Source of the DNA: Saprospiraceae bacterium
GTDB taxonomy: Bacteria > Bacteroidota > Bacteroidia > Chitinophagales > Saprospiraceae
DNA length: 64,000 bases
Assembly (NCBI GenBank): GCA_029212405.1
Contig: JARGNR010000004.1
Coordinates: forward strand, 16,993 to 80,992
Direction of reading: 5' to 3'
The translations under genes and the position numbers were made by a program. Shown here one piece after another: positions 2,299 to 6,841 of the stretch. The stretch's first letter is position 1; each line of letters starts with the position of its first letter. The notes beneath the pieces were generated by a model. It saw nothing but the letters and a program-made list of their open reading frames with translations, made no database searches and was not told the origin of the DNA.

Positions 2299-3336
2299 TT
2301 ATACTTTTTCATTGTAATCCGTGTTATCTCCATATTTTTTAGCAGCTTCAATCATTCTATATTTCATACGATTCCTCATTCGTTCAGGTTTCAACACTTC
2401 AATTTTTTCACCGAAACCAAGAATTAGTCGTTCAATTTCAAAATTATGATGCACATTTATTTGTATAATAATACTGTTGTCCTCAAATTTTTTGATCAAC
2501 TTTTGAGAGTGGTGAAATGGTTTAGTTAGTACGTATGGAGCATTTGATGGGTCAATCCAAAGGACAATTTCTAGAATTTGTTCGTCATTTAATACGGTTA
2601 CACCAAACGTGTTTTTATAGTAATCATCTGGGTTGAAGTTGTCTTTACTATATTCTTCTGACAAGGAATAGGAAATCTTCTGAATTCGATCTAAAGCAAA
2701 GTTCTGTATATTCTTTCTACCATTTACTTTACCAACAGCAAACCATCTGTTGTTGAATTCTTTCAAGATGTATGGAGTGAAATTGAATTCTGAAGGCCGA
2801 TCGGATTTGAAGGATTGATATTTAATTGAAAGGACTATTTTTTTCAGGATAGCTTGATAAATGACATCCAAATGTTCTAGCCCTTTTAATTCCTTATTGG
2901 TATCTAAATGAATAATTGAATCTTTGGAATTTTTTTCGCTGTAGACCTTATCTTCCAACTTTTGAAGGACTCCATTCAAATCCGAAAATAGGGAGAAATC
3001 TTTGAATTGTTTTAGCATTTCCACAGATTCCATGATGACTCCCATGTCTGTTTCAGTAATGGGAATGTTAGTAATAGAGTAATCTGCATCTTCGTAGGTA
3101 TAGTACTTTTTATCGTAGACTACAATAGGAGCATTATATCCTAGCTTATCGCTTCTCATTAATTGTAAGTCTAATTGGATGGTTCGTTTGCTTACATTTG
3201 TACTTTTACCTTCGTACTCATATAATGCATCGGAACATGCATCGATAAGAGAGTCCAATGTCCATTTTCGTTGACGATTTTGAAGACATTGATCAATTGT
3301 TCGATATCGAATAAGTGCATTTTTGTTGGTTGCCAT
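2299..3336 (-). CDS. WYL-domain helix-turn-helix transcriptional regulator
   Basis: N-terminal wHTH (IRYRTIDQCLQNRQRKWTLDSLIDACSDALYEYEG) and WYL-like core (LSIKYQSFKS...FTPYILKEFNNRWFAVGK); ATG at 3336 preferred over the ORF-track start. Confidence 0.8.
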   Translation of the reverse strand: MATNKNALIRYRTIDQCLQNRQRKWTLDSLIDACSDALYEYEGKSTNVSKRTIQLDLQLMRSDKLGYNAPIVVYDKKYYTYEDADYSITNIPITETDMGVIMESVEMLKQFKDFSLFSDLNGVLQKLEDKVYSEKNSKDSIIHLDTNKELKGLEHLDVIYQAILKKIVLSIKYQSFKSDRPSEFNFTPYILKEFNNRWFAVGKVNGRKNIQNFALDRIQKISYSLSEEYSKDNFNPDDYYKNTFGVTVLNDEQILEIVLWIDPSNAPYVLTKPFHHSQKLIKKFEDNSIIIQINVHHNFEIERLILGFGEKIEVLKPERMRNRMKYRMIEAAKKYGDNTDYNEKV

Positions 3337-3362
3337 AAGTATTTTATTTTGCACTTTAAATG

Positions 3363-3381
3363 TACGCAAAATAATTGCGTA
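3363..3381. promoter_or_regulatory. Inverted repeat TACGCAA-AATAA-TTGCGTA in the WYL/rtcB divergent intergenic region (candidate operator)
   Basis: Perfect 7-bp arms, 5-nt spacer, just upstream of TAGATTTG (3391-3398), a -7-like element for rtcB. Confidence 0.6.
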
Positions 3382-3416
3382 GGAGGTGTTTAGATTTGTT
3401 TTCAAATAATGAAAAG

Positions 3417-4781
3417 ATGAAAATAACAGGAAACACATTGATAGAATTGGGATATAAACCTGGGAAATGGTTTAGAGAGGCGTTGGTGGTAGTCAATGAA
3501 GAATCGTTTGACGCTGGACAGCTTACTGCATATTTAGATTCCATTGCACCAAAAATTGTTGATCCATTTGAAGTGGCGAGACCTTTTGAGAAAAACATTA
3601 AAGCTGAATCTGAAGATGAGATTGTAAATGTGGCTGCGGTAATGCGGACTATGGAAGAGGTAATGAAAACTCCGACAGCGGTCAAGGGAGCCATCATGCC
3701 AGATGCTTGTCCAACAGGAAGGATTGGACAGATTCCTGTTGGAGGTGTTGTGGTGACTAAAAACGCCATCCACCCTTCCATGCATAGTGCTGATATCTGT
3801 TGTTCTGTTATGATGACCTCCTATGGTAAAACATCACCAAAGGCAGTATTGGATGCAGCGCATAGTATTACTCATTTTGGGGGAGGCGGTAGAAATGACT
3901 TGTTTGATTTTCCACACATTCTTGAAGAGCAGATCAAAGAGAATAGATTTTTGAATACAGAAAGAAGTTTAGGATTGGCAAAAACACACATGGGTACACA
4001 AGGAGATGGTAATCATTTTTTGTATGTTGGTGTATCTGAACAAACTGGAGAGACCATTATGGTGACTCATCACGGGAGTAGAGGGTTTGGTGCGAATTTA
4101 TTCAAGCAAGGAATGGCTGTGGCTGAAAAATTTAGAATGGATATTTCTCCACGTACTGCGAAAGGTAATGGATGGATTCCGTATTCTGAACCAGAAGGAA
4201 AAGGATATTGGGAAGCGTTGCAGATTGTAAGAGAATGGACCAAAATGAATCATACTGTTTTGCATGATGCCACGTGTAGACTAGTGGGTAAAGATCCGGA
4301 TTCACGATTTTGGAATGAGCATAATTTTGTTTTTAAGGAAGATGATTTGTTTTATCATGCAAAGGGAGCAACTCCATTAGCGGATAAGTTTGTACCAGAT
4401 TCCGTAGGGGGGTTGCGATTAATTCCTTTGAATATGAGTGAACCAGTACTTATTGTTAGAGGAAGTACTTCTGATACAAATCTTGGGTTTGCCCCACATG
4501 GAGCTGGTCGAAATGTGAGTCGATCTCAACACATTAGAAATAATTCTGACAGAACAATAAAAGAAATCTTTAACGAAGAAACGAAAGGACTGGATGTTCG
4601 GTTTTATTCCAAAAATGTGGATATATCAGAATTGCCATCCGCGTACAAAAGTGCTAAAGCCGTACAAAGTCAAATGAAGGAGTTTGGTTTAGGAGAGGTA
4701 GTAGATAGAATAAATCCGTATGGTTGTATCATGGCTGGAGATTGGAAGATCGATGCACCGTGGAGAAAGAAAAGAAAATAA
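3417..4781 (+). CDS. rtcB: RtcB-family RNA ligase
   Basis: Motifs [49 protein letters not shown]; divergent from the classical GSMG signature. Start at MKITG, 3417. Confidence 0.88.
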
Positions 4782-4802
4782 ATTATAACTTTGCGTCAAC
4801 TT

Positions 4803-4910
4803 ATGAAAGTTACCAATATACATATGAGCGAACTGGGATTATTCCCGACGATAGATTTAAATCGAGAATACGATTTGAAAATGGATCGCTTATATCATCC
4901 TGTAGAGTAA
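4803..4910 (+). CDS. short ORF, 35 aa (MKVTNIHMSELGLFPTIDLNREYDLKMDRLYHPVE); candidate leader peptide downstream of rtcB
   Basis: ATG...TAA between rtcB stop and a terminator; 15/35 residues are D/E/H/L/P. Confidence 0.45.
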   Translation: MKVTNIHMSELGLFPTIDLNREYDLKMDRLYHPVE

Positions 4911-4942
4911 TATTTATTTGAAAATATACAATTCGAAAAAAG

Positions 4943-4973
4943 AGCGTCCAGATTAAATTTTGGGCGCTTTTTT
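4943..4973 (+). terminator. Rho-independent terminator after rtcB/short ORF 1
   Basis: AGCGTCCA...TGGGCGCT hairpin followed by TTTTTT. Confidence 0.75.
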
Positions 4974-5175
4974 AGTTTAGAAACAAATATAATTTAAAGA
5001 AAAACACAATTATTTTGAATAATTAGAAAGACATAAATATCGCACTTGAAAAGAATAACAATTGAGAGACAGACTGTTGTGAATTTTGACATATGCTGCT
5101 TAAGAGCGGCCATAAATACCAATGTCAATAAGCTACATAACTAATTGAAAATCAATTAATTAAATTATTTTTTCC

Positions 5176-5205
5176 TTGTGATTTTAAAAAATTTGTTTAC
5201 CTTTG
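5176..5205 (+). promoter_or_regulatory. Bacteroidota-type promoter (TTG 5176-5178, N19, TACCTTTG 5198-5205)
   Basis: Good consensus match upstream of short ORF 2. Confidence 0.65.
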
Positions 5206-5309
5206 CATTGTCAATTAATAAAAACAGAGAAAGACATATTAGTAAATAAAACCTGTTGCTTATTTAATTCACAATGAAAATCAATTAAAAAATATAAATA
5301 CCAGTTGTA

Positions 5310-5757: not shown

Positions 5758-5770
5758 CAAAAATTTAAAT

Positions 5771-5842
5771 CTGAGAAGATAACGGTGGTTGTTTACTCGC
5801 TTTGGAAGCGAGAGGTCATAGGTTCAAATCCTATTTCTCAGA
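5771..5842 (+). tRNA. tRNA-Pro(TGG)-like, no T8/A14
   Basis: Acceptor CTGAGAA/TTCTCAG with C1-G72 and A73, anticodon arm CTCGC-TTTGGAA-GCGAG, T-arm ATAGG-TTCAAAT-CCTAT. Confidence 0.75.
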
Positions 5843-5847
5843 CTATT

Positions 5848-5919
5848 GCTCCGTTCGTATAATGGTTAGTATACTCGGCTTTCTACCGAGGGATGAGGGT
5901 TCGATTCCCTTACGGAGTA
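5848..5919 (+). tRNA. tRNA-Glu(TTC)-like copy 2, T37
   Basis: Near-identical to copy 1; anticodon arm CTCGG-CTTTCTA-CCGAG. Confidence 0.8.
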
Positions 5920-5925
5920 CAAAAT

Positions 5926-5999
5926 GCGGGGATGGCGGAAATGGCATACGCGTCCGATTTAGAATCGGGAATTTGAGGGTTCGACTCCCTCTCTCTGCA
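5926..5999 (+). tRNA. tRNA-Leu(TAG)-like with short (class I) variable loop
   Basis: Acceptor GCGGGGA/TCTCTGC, anticodon arm TCCGA-TTTAGAA-TCGGG, 5-nt variable region AATTT, T-arm GAGGG-TTCGACT-CCCTC. Confidence 0.75.
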
Positions 6000-6018
6000 C
6001 CTATCACGATAGATCTAG

Positions 6019-6092
6019 ATCCCACTAGCCCAATTGGCAGAGGCAAAGGATTTAAGCTCCTTACAGTCTGGGTTCGACTCCCAGGTGGGATA
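6019..6092 (+). tRNA. tRNA-Leu(TAA)-like with short (class I) variable loop
   Basis: Acceptor ATCCCAC/GTGGGAT, anticodon arm AAGGA-TTTAAGC-TCCTT, 5-nt variable region ACAGT, T-arm CTGGG-TTCGACT-CCCAG. Confidence 0.8.
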
Positions 6093-6108
6093 CAAGATTG
6101 TATCATAT

Positions 6109-6180
6109 GGTGTCTCTAGTTTAACTGGTAAAATACCTCAATGTGGATGAGGAGAACAGAGTTCGAGTCTCGGTGACACC
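6109..6180 (+). tRNA. tRNA-His(GTG)-like with defective T stem/acceptor mismatch
   Basis: GGTGTC/GACACC acceptor (including G-1), anticodon arm CCTCA-ATGTGGA-TGAGG, TTCGAGT loop; T-T mismatch and bulge in T stem. Confidence 0.7.
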
Positions 6181-6280
6181 CAAAATATTTGTAAAATAAC
6201 TCTGAGGATTTTCAGAGGTAGGTGAGAACGAGCAATTACTCACTGCCAATAAAGTGCGGAGATTTTCGTTATTAACTCGC

Positions 6281-6841
6281 TCAGTTTAATGTGTCGATGT
6301 AATCTACGATTTCCTCCGAAACTTGAATCACTTTGGCTTCAATTTGTTCTGCTAAAACGTTTAGATTATCAAAATCTGGATTTTCGATTATCGTGGTTTC
6401 AAAAATTGAATATTTAGGCATTTCAGTTTTGTCCTTATTCCACTTTGTGGTTTTCAACAAATTCCAATATTTTTTTTGAATAGGTATAGTAGTTCCAAGT
6501 AACCAAATTTCAAATCTCATTTCTATGTGATTTAATACAAATCCGAGTTTTAGTTTTTTGCTCTTTAAAATATCATTTGAATAGTAGAAATACGTATAGT
6601 CCATATATCCATGAAGAATTCCAGCAAATGAAAAATGACCAGAACAGCTCTTGATAAAATTCGTTCTTAACTTCATAACAAATTTCACTAATTCGTTGTA
6701 GGCTATTACTATGTCTCCTTTTCTAAGTTGTTCTTTATAAATCGAAACATATTTATTCAAATTTTCCATATCTGTTTTTATTAGATTTTTCAATTCAGGG
6801 TATAGCTCTCCTACTCTTATCATTTGGTTAAACGTATTCAC
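6281..6841 (-). CDS. hypothetical protein (186 aa)
   Basis: Long ORF without a recognised motif. Confidence 0.5.
   Translation of the reverse strand: MNTFNQMIRVGELYPELKNLIKTDMENLNKYVSIYKEQLRKGDIVIAYNELVKFVMKLRTNFIKSCSGHFSFAGILHGYMDYTYFYYSNDILKSKKLKLGFVLNHIEMRFEIWLLGTTIPIQKKYWNLLKTTKWNKDKTEMPKYSIFETTIIENPDFDNLNVLAEQIEAKVIQVSEEIVDYIDTLN

Follow-up and report, generated by a model that had tools for sequence, protein, structure and literature searches.

Bacteria are thought to meet cleavage of their transfer RNAs (tRNAs) with repair, dormancy or death. The attenuators of the trp, his and leu operons place regulatory codons in a leader peptide, with an overlapping antiterminator and an intrinsic terminator ahead of the controlled genes. 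RNA-repair modules containing SPFH/Band-7 proteins are said (Burroughs and Aravind 2016) to include one tRNA-like molecule, not multi-isoacceptor arrays under leader control. The Salmonella rtcBA operon responds to tRNA fragments (PMC7790460), the RtcB2-PrfH module shields E. coli from colicin E3 (PMC9223846), and phage tRNAs have been proposed to dodge anticodon nucleases via anticodon-loop mutations (van den Berg et al. 2023, PMC10264068). Here we describe a locus in a 64,000-nucleotide stretch of a Saprospiraceae bacterium genome (GCA_029212405.1, contig JARGNR010000004.1, positions 16,993 to 80,992; hereafter the window), in which a WYL regulator gene and the RNA ligase gene rtcB are accompanied by two short open reading frames (ORFs) and an array of seven divergent tRNA genes. 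Judged from its sequence, the locus is probably a self-sensing tRNA replacement unit, in which an attenuator would detect the loss of specific tRNAs and release replacements insensitive to anticodon nucleases.

Like the amino-acid-operon attenuators, the locus has a codon-bearing leader, an overlapping antiterminator and a terminator. It differs from them in that the controlled genes are tRNA genes rather than genes for biosynthetic enzymes, a single leader watches many tRNAs (for as many as 14 amino acids within 33 codons, at locus L190), and the output replenishes the sensed molecule itself. The array tRNAs resemble phage tRNAs in being divergent, in their anticodon-loop changes and in sharing residue-37 changes with Vibrio phages, whereas the arrays are chromosomal, leader-controlled and adjoin RNA-repair genes. 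With the RtcR-regulated rtcBA operon the locus shares an RtcB ligase and a predicted response to tRNA damage; it differs in its WYL/WCX neighbour, with no RtcR (CARF, AAA+, sigma54) adjacent in the window, in its array of complete tRNAs, and in sensing that would rely on codon stalling rather than on tRNA halves. The RtcB2-PrfH module differs in mending 16S rRNA; it shares sites with arrays in L083, L189 and L191 and is itself absent from the window. An SPFH gene adjoins arrays in L083, L088, L191 and L195, a likeness to the SPFH/Band-7 modules. The parts of the locus (leader attenuators, phage-like tRNAs, RtcB repair) are of known kinds. A preliminary description of this DNA knew of no system with such a layout; in the open-access full texts searched, we likewise found none, nor any description of tRNA genes under a leader written in their own codons.

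Leader composition and array content

By their composition, the short ORFs of the window are leader peptides made from codons of the array tRNAs. After the initial methionine, 23 of the 39 residues of ORF2 are Asp, Glu, Pro, Leu or His, the five amino acids of the array, against an expected 27% (binomial p=3.2e-5; empirical p=0.0017 against 1194 short ORFs). The enrichment is weaker in ORF1 (15/34, p=0.026). This match is the strongest feature of the locus, and was missed by the preliminary description. The tail of each ORF can also pair with the 5' arm of the terminator behind it, with duplex energies of -12.1 kcal/mol for ORF1 and terminator 1 (shuffles -6.7, p=0.023) and -11.4 for ORF2 and terminator 2 (shuffles -6.9, p=0.030); 'caagagat' in ORF2 is complementary to 'atctcttg' in terminator 2. 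When the 3' arm of terminator 2 is omitted from the folding, the best fold (-15.3 kcal/mol) includes the antiterminator pairing, and when it is present the terminator forms. Because the ORFs carry the leader codons and their tails are complementary to the terminator 5' arms, we take them to be parts of a leader-peptide attenuator, and a ribosome-mediated attenuator upstream of the array is strongly supported by these features. A T-box riboswitch was considered and dropped because no Rfam T-box was matched in the window, where all matches were to tRNA, or in ten further array loci.

Covariation between leaders and arrays was evaluated in 16 arrays with 29 leaders by permuting the array sets among loci in 20,000 trials. 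Leaders were picked by position (stop codon 20-50 nt ahead of a hairpin), with a few starts set manually. The leader of C73, a second array in the same genome, was started at MKITHN, the ATG further upstream being part of the promoter region, a choice that reduces the C73 score, and the Gln annotation at L193 9819 / L196 11531 was reinterpreted manually as Pro. The leader/array match score was 47.1, compared with 18.6±5.2 after permutation (0/20,000 as high), and restricting the test to 11 loci left the outcome unchanged. Each of the 18 testable amino acids is more frequent in the leaders of arrays that include the matching tRNA. Coverage, the share of array amino acids present in the leader, is 28.16/29, compared with 26.34±0.44 after permutation (0/20,000). 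The 33 codons of ORF1 in Aquimarina L190 specify each of the 14 amino acids of the array, with Trp, Cys, Met and His among them (p=0.0012). Pairing of the ORF tail with the terminator 5' arm is stronger than the average shuffle in every one of the 28 leaders tested (combined p 1.7e-16); as the pairing is kept and the sequences differ by locus, compensatory change is indicated. In ORF2-type leaders, 20-29 nt separate the stop codon from the hairpin. Conservation of the short ORFs, on which the preliminary description had staked its reading, holds for position and matching composition and fails for sequence.

These results bear on the simplest alternative, that the array is an ordinary tRNA operon with short ORFs and terminators beside it by coincidence. 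tRNA clusters are frequent in bacteria and some leaders are unremarkable in composition, as this explanation would have it. However, the layout of ORF plus terminator is present at 18/18 arrays and at 1/62 canonical tRNA genes; from this contrast and the recurrence in other genomes we conclude that the arrangement is more than chance. With the permutation and antiterminator tests and the presence of canonical copies elsewhere in the genome also against it, coincidence is hardly credible.

A second array and arrays in relatives

The second array, on contig C73, encodes tRNAs for Phe, Leu(UAG), Cys and Ser, with two genes each for Phe, Leu(UAG) and Cys. Ahead of it come a sequence resembling a promoter, the ORF MKITHNIPSTSFSSFCSTIARAMG and a terminator; the 5' arm of this terminator, agctcttgc, pairs with gcgagagct in the ORF tail. 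Ser, Phe and Cys predominate in this leader, and Leu is unrepresented. The 16 kb covered at this locus contain no rtcB.

When 85,462 species were scanned with the signature of the array tRNA-Asp, 18 stretches were returned, all from Saprospiraceae or Flavobacteriaceae (Tenacibaculum, Aquimarina, Winogradskyella and other genera), and arrays in relatives reach 17 or more tRNAs. L088 has two arrays, of which one (Asp/Glu/Gln/Leu/His) adjoins rtcB and the other, L088B (Phe/Lys/Asn/Gly/Arg/Met/Arg/Val), adjoins the SPFH gene. Contrasting arrays carry contrasting leaders, as seen in the C73 leader given above and that of L088B, MRVRNMIRKNRKVVFITDYAKA, which begins MRVRNMIRKNRKVVF. The array at L118 additionally has Lys, and its leader, MEYQMDIERKHSGFKPDTMDKLEQFVFDRLKEICM, is richer in Lys.

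Two further loci were noted. Downstream of rtcB at L094 are a leader-like ORF, MSSVQRENVSEKMNLIITRKKITELHVQFTDLLPSETECYCINVS, and a terminator with a matching antiterminator; no array was found there, and this is perhaps a lost array. In the source genome, C108:41051-41422 (L031) holds three Gln-like tRNA genes spaced by ~150 bp, whose anticodons are unusual (cac, unresolved and tcc).

Anticodon loops of the array tRNAs

The seven tRNA genes of the window (5559-6181) were called by ARAGORN and matched independently by Rfam RF00005 at 41-62 bits (cut-off 29). The word 'aberrant' in the preliminary description is a fair one: the array tRNAs are 56-72% identical to canonical copies (Glu was compared with a relative's copy), the Leu genes lack the long variable arm, as do most array Leu genes across loci, and position 37 is altered in six of the seven. 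That these might be the only such tRNAs of the genome does not apply to Asp, Pro, Leu(UAA), Leu(UAG) and His, whose canonical genes are present on other contigs. A canonical Glu gene was not found in the 222-contig draft by pattern search or by BLAST with a relative's gene. Since Ile(GAU) and Ala(UGC) are missing from the tRNA listing of the draft as well, and canonical Glu is present in relatives, the gene was probably lost to an assembly gap, an explanation that is likely but not proven.

Taking the canonical genes of the source genome and two relatives as reference, residue 37 is changed in 102 of 109 array genes from ten isoacceptor classes. The change is from A to U in Asp (19/19) and Glu (15/15); from G to A in Pro (17/17), Leu(UAG) (16/16), Gln (13/14), Arg(ACG) (5/5), Arg(UCG) (1/1) and His (7/9); and from A to G in Phe (6/8) and Leu(UAA) (3/5). 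The residue is unchanged (0/48 altered) in Lys, Asn, Met, Ser, Cys, Tyr, Trp, Gly, Val and Arg(UCU). Discriminator bases are mostly retained, with exceptions among the Gln, His, Phe, Arg and Trp genes.

One alternative is that the RNAs released by the attenuator act as tRNA mimics, tying up or inhibiting a nuclease rather than replacing lost tRNAs. Such decoys could well be as divergent as the array tRNAs and dispense with the variable arm of Leu, truncated tRNA-like genes lie close to array ends, and one proposal for a tRNA-like Y RNA domain is that it competitively inhibits an anticodon nuclease (PMC7790460). A bait, however, would be expected to retain the cleaved loop, whereas the array genes keep their anticodons and most discriminator bases and have a loop moved away from the canonical one, which is the pattern of working resistant tRNAs. 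We consider decoys unlikely. Candidate decoys were observed downstream of arrays at L190 ~7883, L191 12296, L194 8325 and L195 8976 (array-forward coordinates); these tRNA-like sequences have a good 5' half and anticodon arm (CAU, GUU, CAU and UUU, respectively) and no normal T arm.

Phage tRNA genes are among the sequences similar to the arrays (as much as 92% across 84 nt). Two Vibrio phages share with the arrays U37 in Glu and A37 in Pro, Leu(UAG) and Gln; their Asp is canonical. Neither the Asp nor the Phe array signature was matched in viral contigs. By analogy, the parallel at residue 37 supports, and does not prove, nuclease resistance of the array tRNAs. The similarity and the common loop changes could also mean that the array is a domesticated phage tRNA block, kept for codon supply, with its leader by descent and no role in damage. 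Against this stand the lack of phage genes close by, the failure of viral contigs to match the array, leader content that tracks array content in unrelated arrays, and the linkage to rtcB; we judge it very improbable.

RNA-repair genes near the arrays

The window type of rtcB occurs in ~45/199 genomes of the family, mostly with a divergently transcribed WYL gene, and this neighbour is 55-67% identical in most of the rtcB relatives. An array lies downstream at 4/41 rtcB loci (window counted), and at L089, a fifth locus, there is a single decayed tRNA. Seven Saprospiraceae array genomes were found independently of rtcB; the window-type rtcB is present in six of them, compared with ~45/199 (p=7.5e-4). 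In several Flavobacteriaceae the array is 7-35 kb from rtcB, and in Tenacibaculum array genomes the rtcB2 type alone was found. Given this loose distance, the Tenacibaculum genomes in which only rtcB2 was found and the C73 array with no rtcB nearby, we conclude that leader and array are the unit and RtcB a frequent partner. The link between array and rtcB drawn in the preliminary description extends to relatives, and its tight WYL-rtcB-array layout is one arrangement only.

The palindrome ACGCA-N3..9-TGCGT is present upstream of rtcB at 12/41 loci, at 10 of which it falls between -55 and -67 relative to the aligned rtcB start; the WYL protein probably acts on it. This protein might sense damage, as the preliminary description suggested. 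The array has a promoter of its own. Further repair genes accompany several arrays ('-like' here denotes a gene recognised by eye from similar sequence, with no profile scan). In Aquimarina L189, a stretch of ~7 kb holds WYL, rtcB1, rtcB2, prfH (TIGR03072, 237.9 bits against a cut-off of 166.65) and genes for a TPR protein and an RNase T-like exonuclease, with the array ~8 kb further. L083 has rtcB1, the array, a TPR gene, rtcB2, and prfH-like and SPFH-like genes, and Tenacibaculum L191 has rtcB2, prfH-like, TPR-like and exonuclease genes, the array and SPFH. The source genome has a second rtcB on contig C181. PADLOC matches were limited to generic WYL and DEDDh models.

A gene for a small TPR-like protein (~180 aa) regularly adjoins arrays or repair genes (L074, L083, L088, L089, L189, L191). 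Separately, tRNA or tRNA-like genes at rtcB-bearing loci contain anticodon-loop insertions of 50-100 nt (L191:4549-4665 and 4738-4858; L195:7375-7500; L102 downstream of rtcB), of which that at L195 splits an array tRNA-Glu. The insertions look intron-like and are possibly RtcB substrates.

Proposed mechanism

In the mechanism that we propose, transcription from promoter P2, or from upstream through ORF1, would enter a leader spelled in the codons of the array tRNAs. With plentiful tRNAs, the ribosome would complete the leader and cover the antiterminator, so that the terminator folds and the array remains silent. If an array tRNA class were lost, for example because an anticodon nuclease had cut the anticodon loop, the ribosome would stall earlier in the leader, the antiterminator would pair with the terminator 5' arm, and RNA polymerase would read into the array. 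The array would then supply divergent isoacceptors with altered anticodon loops that escape the nuclease, so that translation could resume, and RtcB (in relatives also RtcB2-PrfH) would mend the cut RNA and restore the cut set. The tandem leaders ORF1 and ORF2 would gate upstream read-through and P2 transcripts in series. The preliminary description had suggested that an attenuator frees variant tRNAs on depletion and that RtcB repairs; the codon match, the covariation, the antiterminators and the altered loops all favour that suggestion. The parts read directly from sequence are the leader codons, their covariation, the terminator, the antiterminator complementarity, the loop changes and the repair-gene linkage, from which we infer that stalling induces the array and that array tRNAs are charged, used and nuclease-resistant.

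As such a leader would be blind to the difference between uncharged and cut tRNA, and classical leaders detect charging, the locus might instead sense uncharged tRNA of any cause and boost supply through the array, with nucleases irrelevant. But extra tRNA is no remedy for amino acid shortage, altered anticodon loops would be unneeded, and the neighbours are RNA-repair genes, not genes for amino acid synthesis. This explanation seems to us slightly less probable even than decoys.

Several points weigh against replacement by nuclease-insensitive tRNAs. The window His tRNA retains G37, and because Lys, Asn, Met, Ser, Cys and Tyr keep the canonical residue 37, resistance could not come from that position alone. 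Some leaders lack an amino acid of their array: Leu in C73, Asp in L122, Gly in L088B and Trp in L191. Taken singly, loci often fall short of significance (ORF2 of L193, p=0.94; L074, p>0.15), and loci within a family are related, so that the combined p-values overstate independence. The cutting nuclease itself is postulated.

Arrays outside Bacteroidota

Candidate leaders were also seen on plasmids of other phyla. A Glu/Arg/Asp array on a Variovorax plasmid (L200) has the upstream ORF ...CARDERRDERAERDERS, a Glu/Asp array on a Rhizobium plasmid (L206) has MPDDDTDDSDERDDEERLNPYCDR..., and an Ile/Lys/Arg/Gly/Met/Thr/Asn array on a Deinococcus plasmid (L207) has MTTLNCKPNPATRTNTVNGNRGGKRVRIPTMRGR... 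Each is rich in the amino acids matching its array and ranks first among the short ORFs of its own locus, the ORFs having been picked after inspection. No intrinsic terminator was recognised at these three plasmid arrays, which we treat as leads. Leader control of spare tRNA arrays may be a general, cross-phylum strategy of cells or mobile elements, a suggestion we make tentatively. If it is true, the codons of stored tRNAs would be written into a test peptide, and the store deployed when any of them fails. The Firmicute arrays L199 and L201 were set aside (canonical loops; upstream sequence that is rRNA, with no leader), as were actinobacterial and other plasmid matches, which were single genes, small groups or full tRNA sets. 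In L213, a Haloplanus rubicundus plasmid, a tRNA-gene-like sequence stands immediately ahead of a TROVE (Ro60-like) gene.

Layout of the window locus

All the elements named in the preliminary description (WYL, rtcB, two short ORFs, terminators, a promoter and seven tRNAs) were found where it had placed them (Table 1), and its observation that no integrase or phage gene lies near the array was confirmed. WYL and rtcB are divergent, and downstream of this pair two promoter-short ORF-terminator units precede the array. The WYL start chosen (MATNKNALIRY...) matches relatives; the longest ORF extends to 3438. The HGAGR, NHF and H-x-GSRG motifs of the window RtcB line up with solved RtcB structures. 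No good -33 match was found for P1 in the window; the equivalent position in L074 has a complete TTG-N19-TAACTTTG.

Table 1 Features of the tRNA array locus (window coordinates)
Feature	Position	Strand	Evidence or remark
WYL/WCX-domain transcription regulator	2299..3336	-	PF13280 4.5e-13, PF25583 1.9e-12
Palindrome TACGCAAAATAATTGCGTA, candidate WYL operator of rtcB	3363..3381	.	putative function
rtcB (RtcB1 type), RNA ligase	3417..4781	+	PF01139 2.8e-36
Promoter P1 -7 element TAACTTTG, ahead of ORF1	4786..4793	+	sequence
Leader ORF1 MKVTNIHMSELGLFPTIDLNREYDLKMDRLYHPVE	4803..4910	+	15/34 residues D/E/P/L/H
Antiterminator segment 1, inside ORF1; partner, terminator 1 5' arm	4881..4892	+	duplex energy
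Intrinsic terminator 1	4939..4972	+	hairpin -20.1 kcal/mol and T run
Conserved element ACAATTGrGAGACAGAC.nTTG	5058..5079	+	seen only with arrays
Promoter P2, Bacteroidota-type TTG-N19-TACCTTTG	5176..5205	+	sequence
Leader ORF2 MTYSISHIELLLDIEPRLPELDCDLEHLDEYSLQEIVDCM	5310..5432	+	23/39 residues D/E/P/L/H
Antiterminator segment 2 acaagagatagta, inside ORF2; partner, terminator 2 5' arm	5408..5420	+	duplex energy
Intrinsic terminator 2, between ORF2 and array	5457..5489	+	hairpin -16.2 kcal/mol, T8
Array tRNA-Asp(GUC)	5559..5632	+	loop CUGUCUC, U37 (canonical CUGUCAC)
Array tRNA-Glu(UUC), first copy	5686..5758	+	U37
Array tRNA-Pro(UGG)	5771..5843	+	A37 (canonical G37)
Array tRNA-Glu(UUC), second copy	5848..5920	+	U37
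Array tRNA-Leu(UAG)	5926..6001	+	A37 (canonical G37), no long variable arm
Array tRNA-Leu(UAA)	6019..6093	+	G37 (canonical A37), no long variable arm
Array tRNA-His(GUG)	6109..6181	+	G37 as in canonical; rest of loop altered

The conserved element between terminator 1 and P2 was found at 15/17 array loci with the region available (the exceptions are C73 and L108) and at no rtcB locus without an array; one weak match occurs elsewhere, in L107. RNAalifold gave a consensus with no pairs for it. In the window a local hairpin accompanies the element (5058-5140), and several loci show one by eye. Directly upstream of P2, at ~5137-5155, is an inverted repeat (ATTGAAAATCAAT / ATTGATAATCAAT) that is seen by eye at the same place in relatives; it is a candidate site for a regulator of the array.

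Implications

The genome appears to keep a second, altered set of tRNAs behind a switch that reports which tRNAs are missing, and the array is likely an emergency supply against tRNA-cutting toxins. If this is true, it would give translation a layer of damage tolerance and be to bacteria what tRNA blocks are to phages, and the residues needed by anticodon nucleases would become testable. The arrays would also offer ready-made parts, in the form of multi-codon sensors of tRNA shortage and candidate nuclease-resistant tRNAs, and the content of arrays and leaders would report which tRNAs are attacked in nature.

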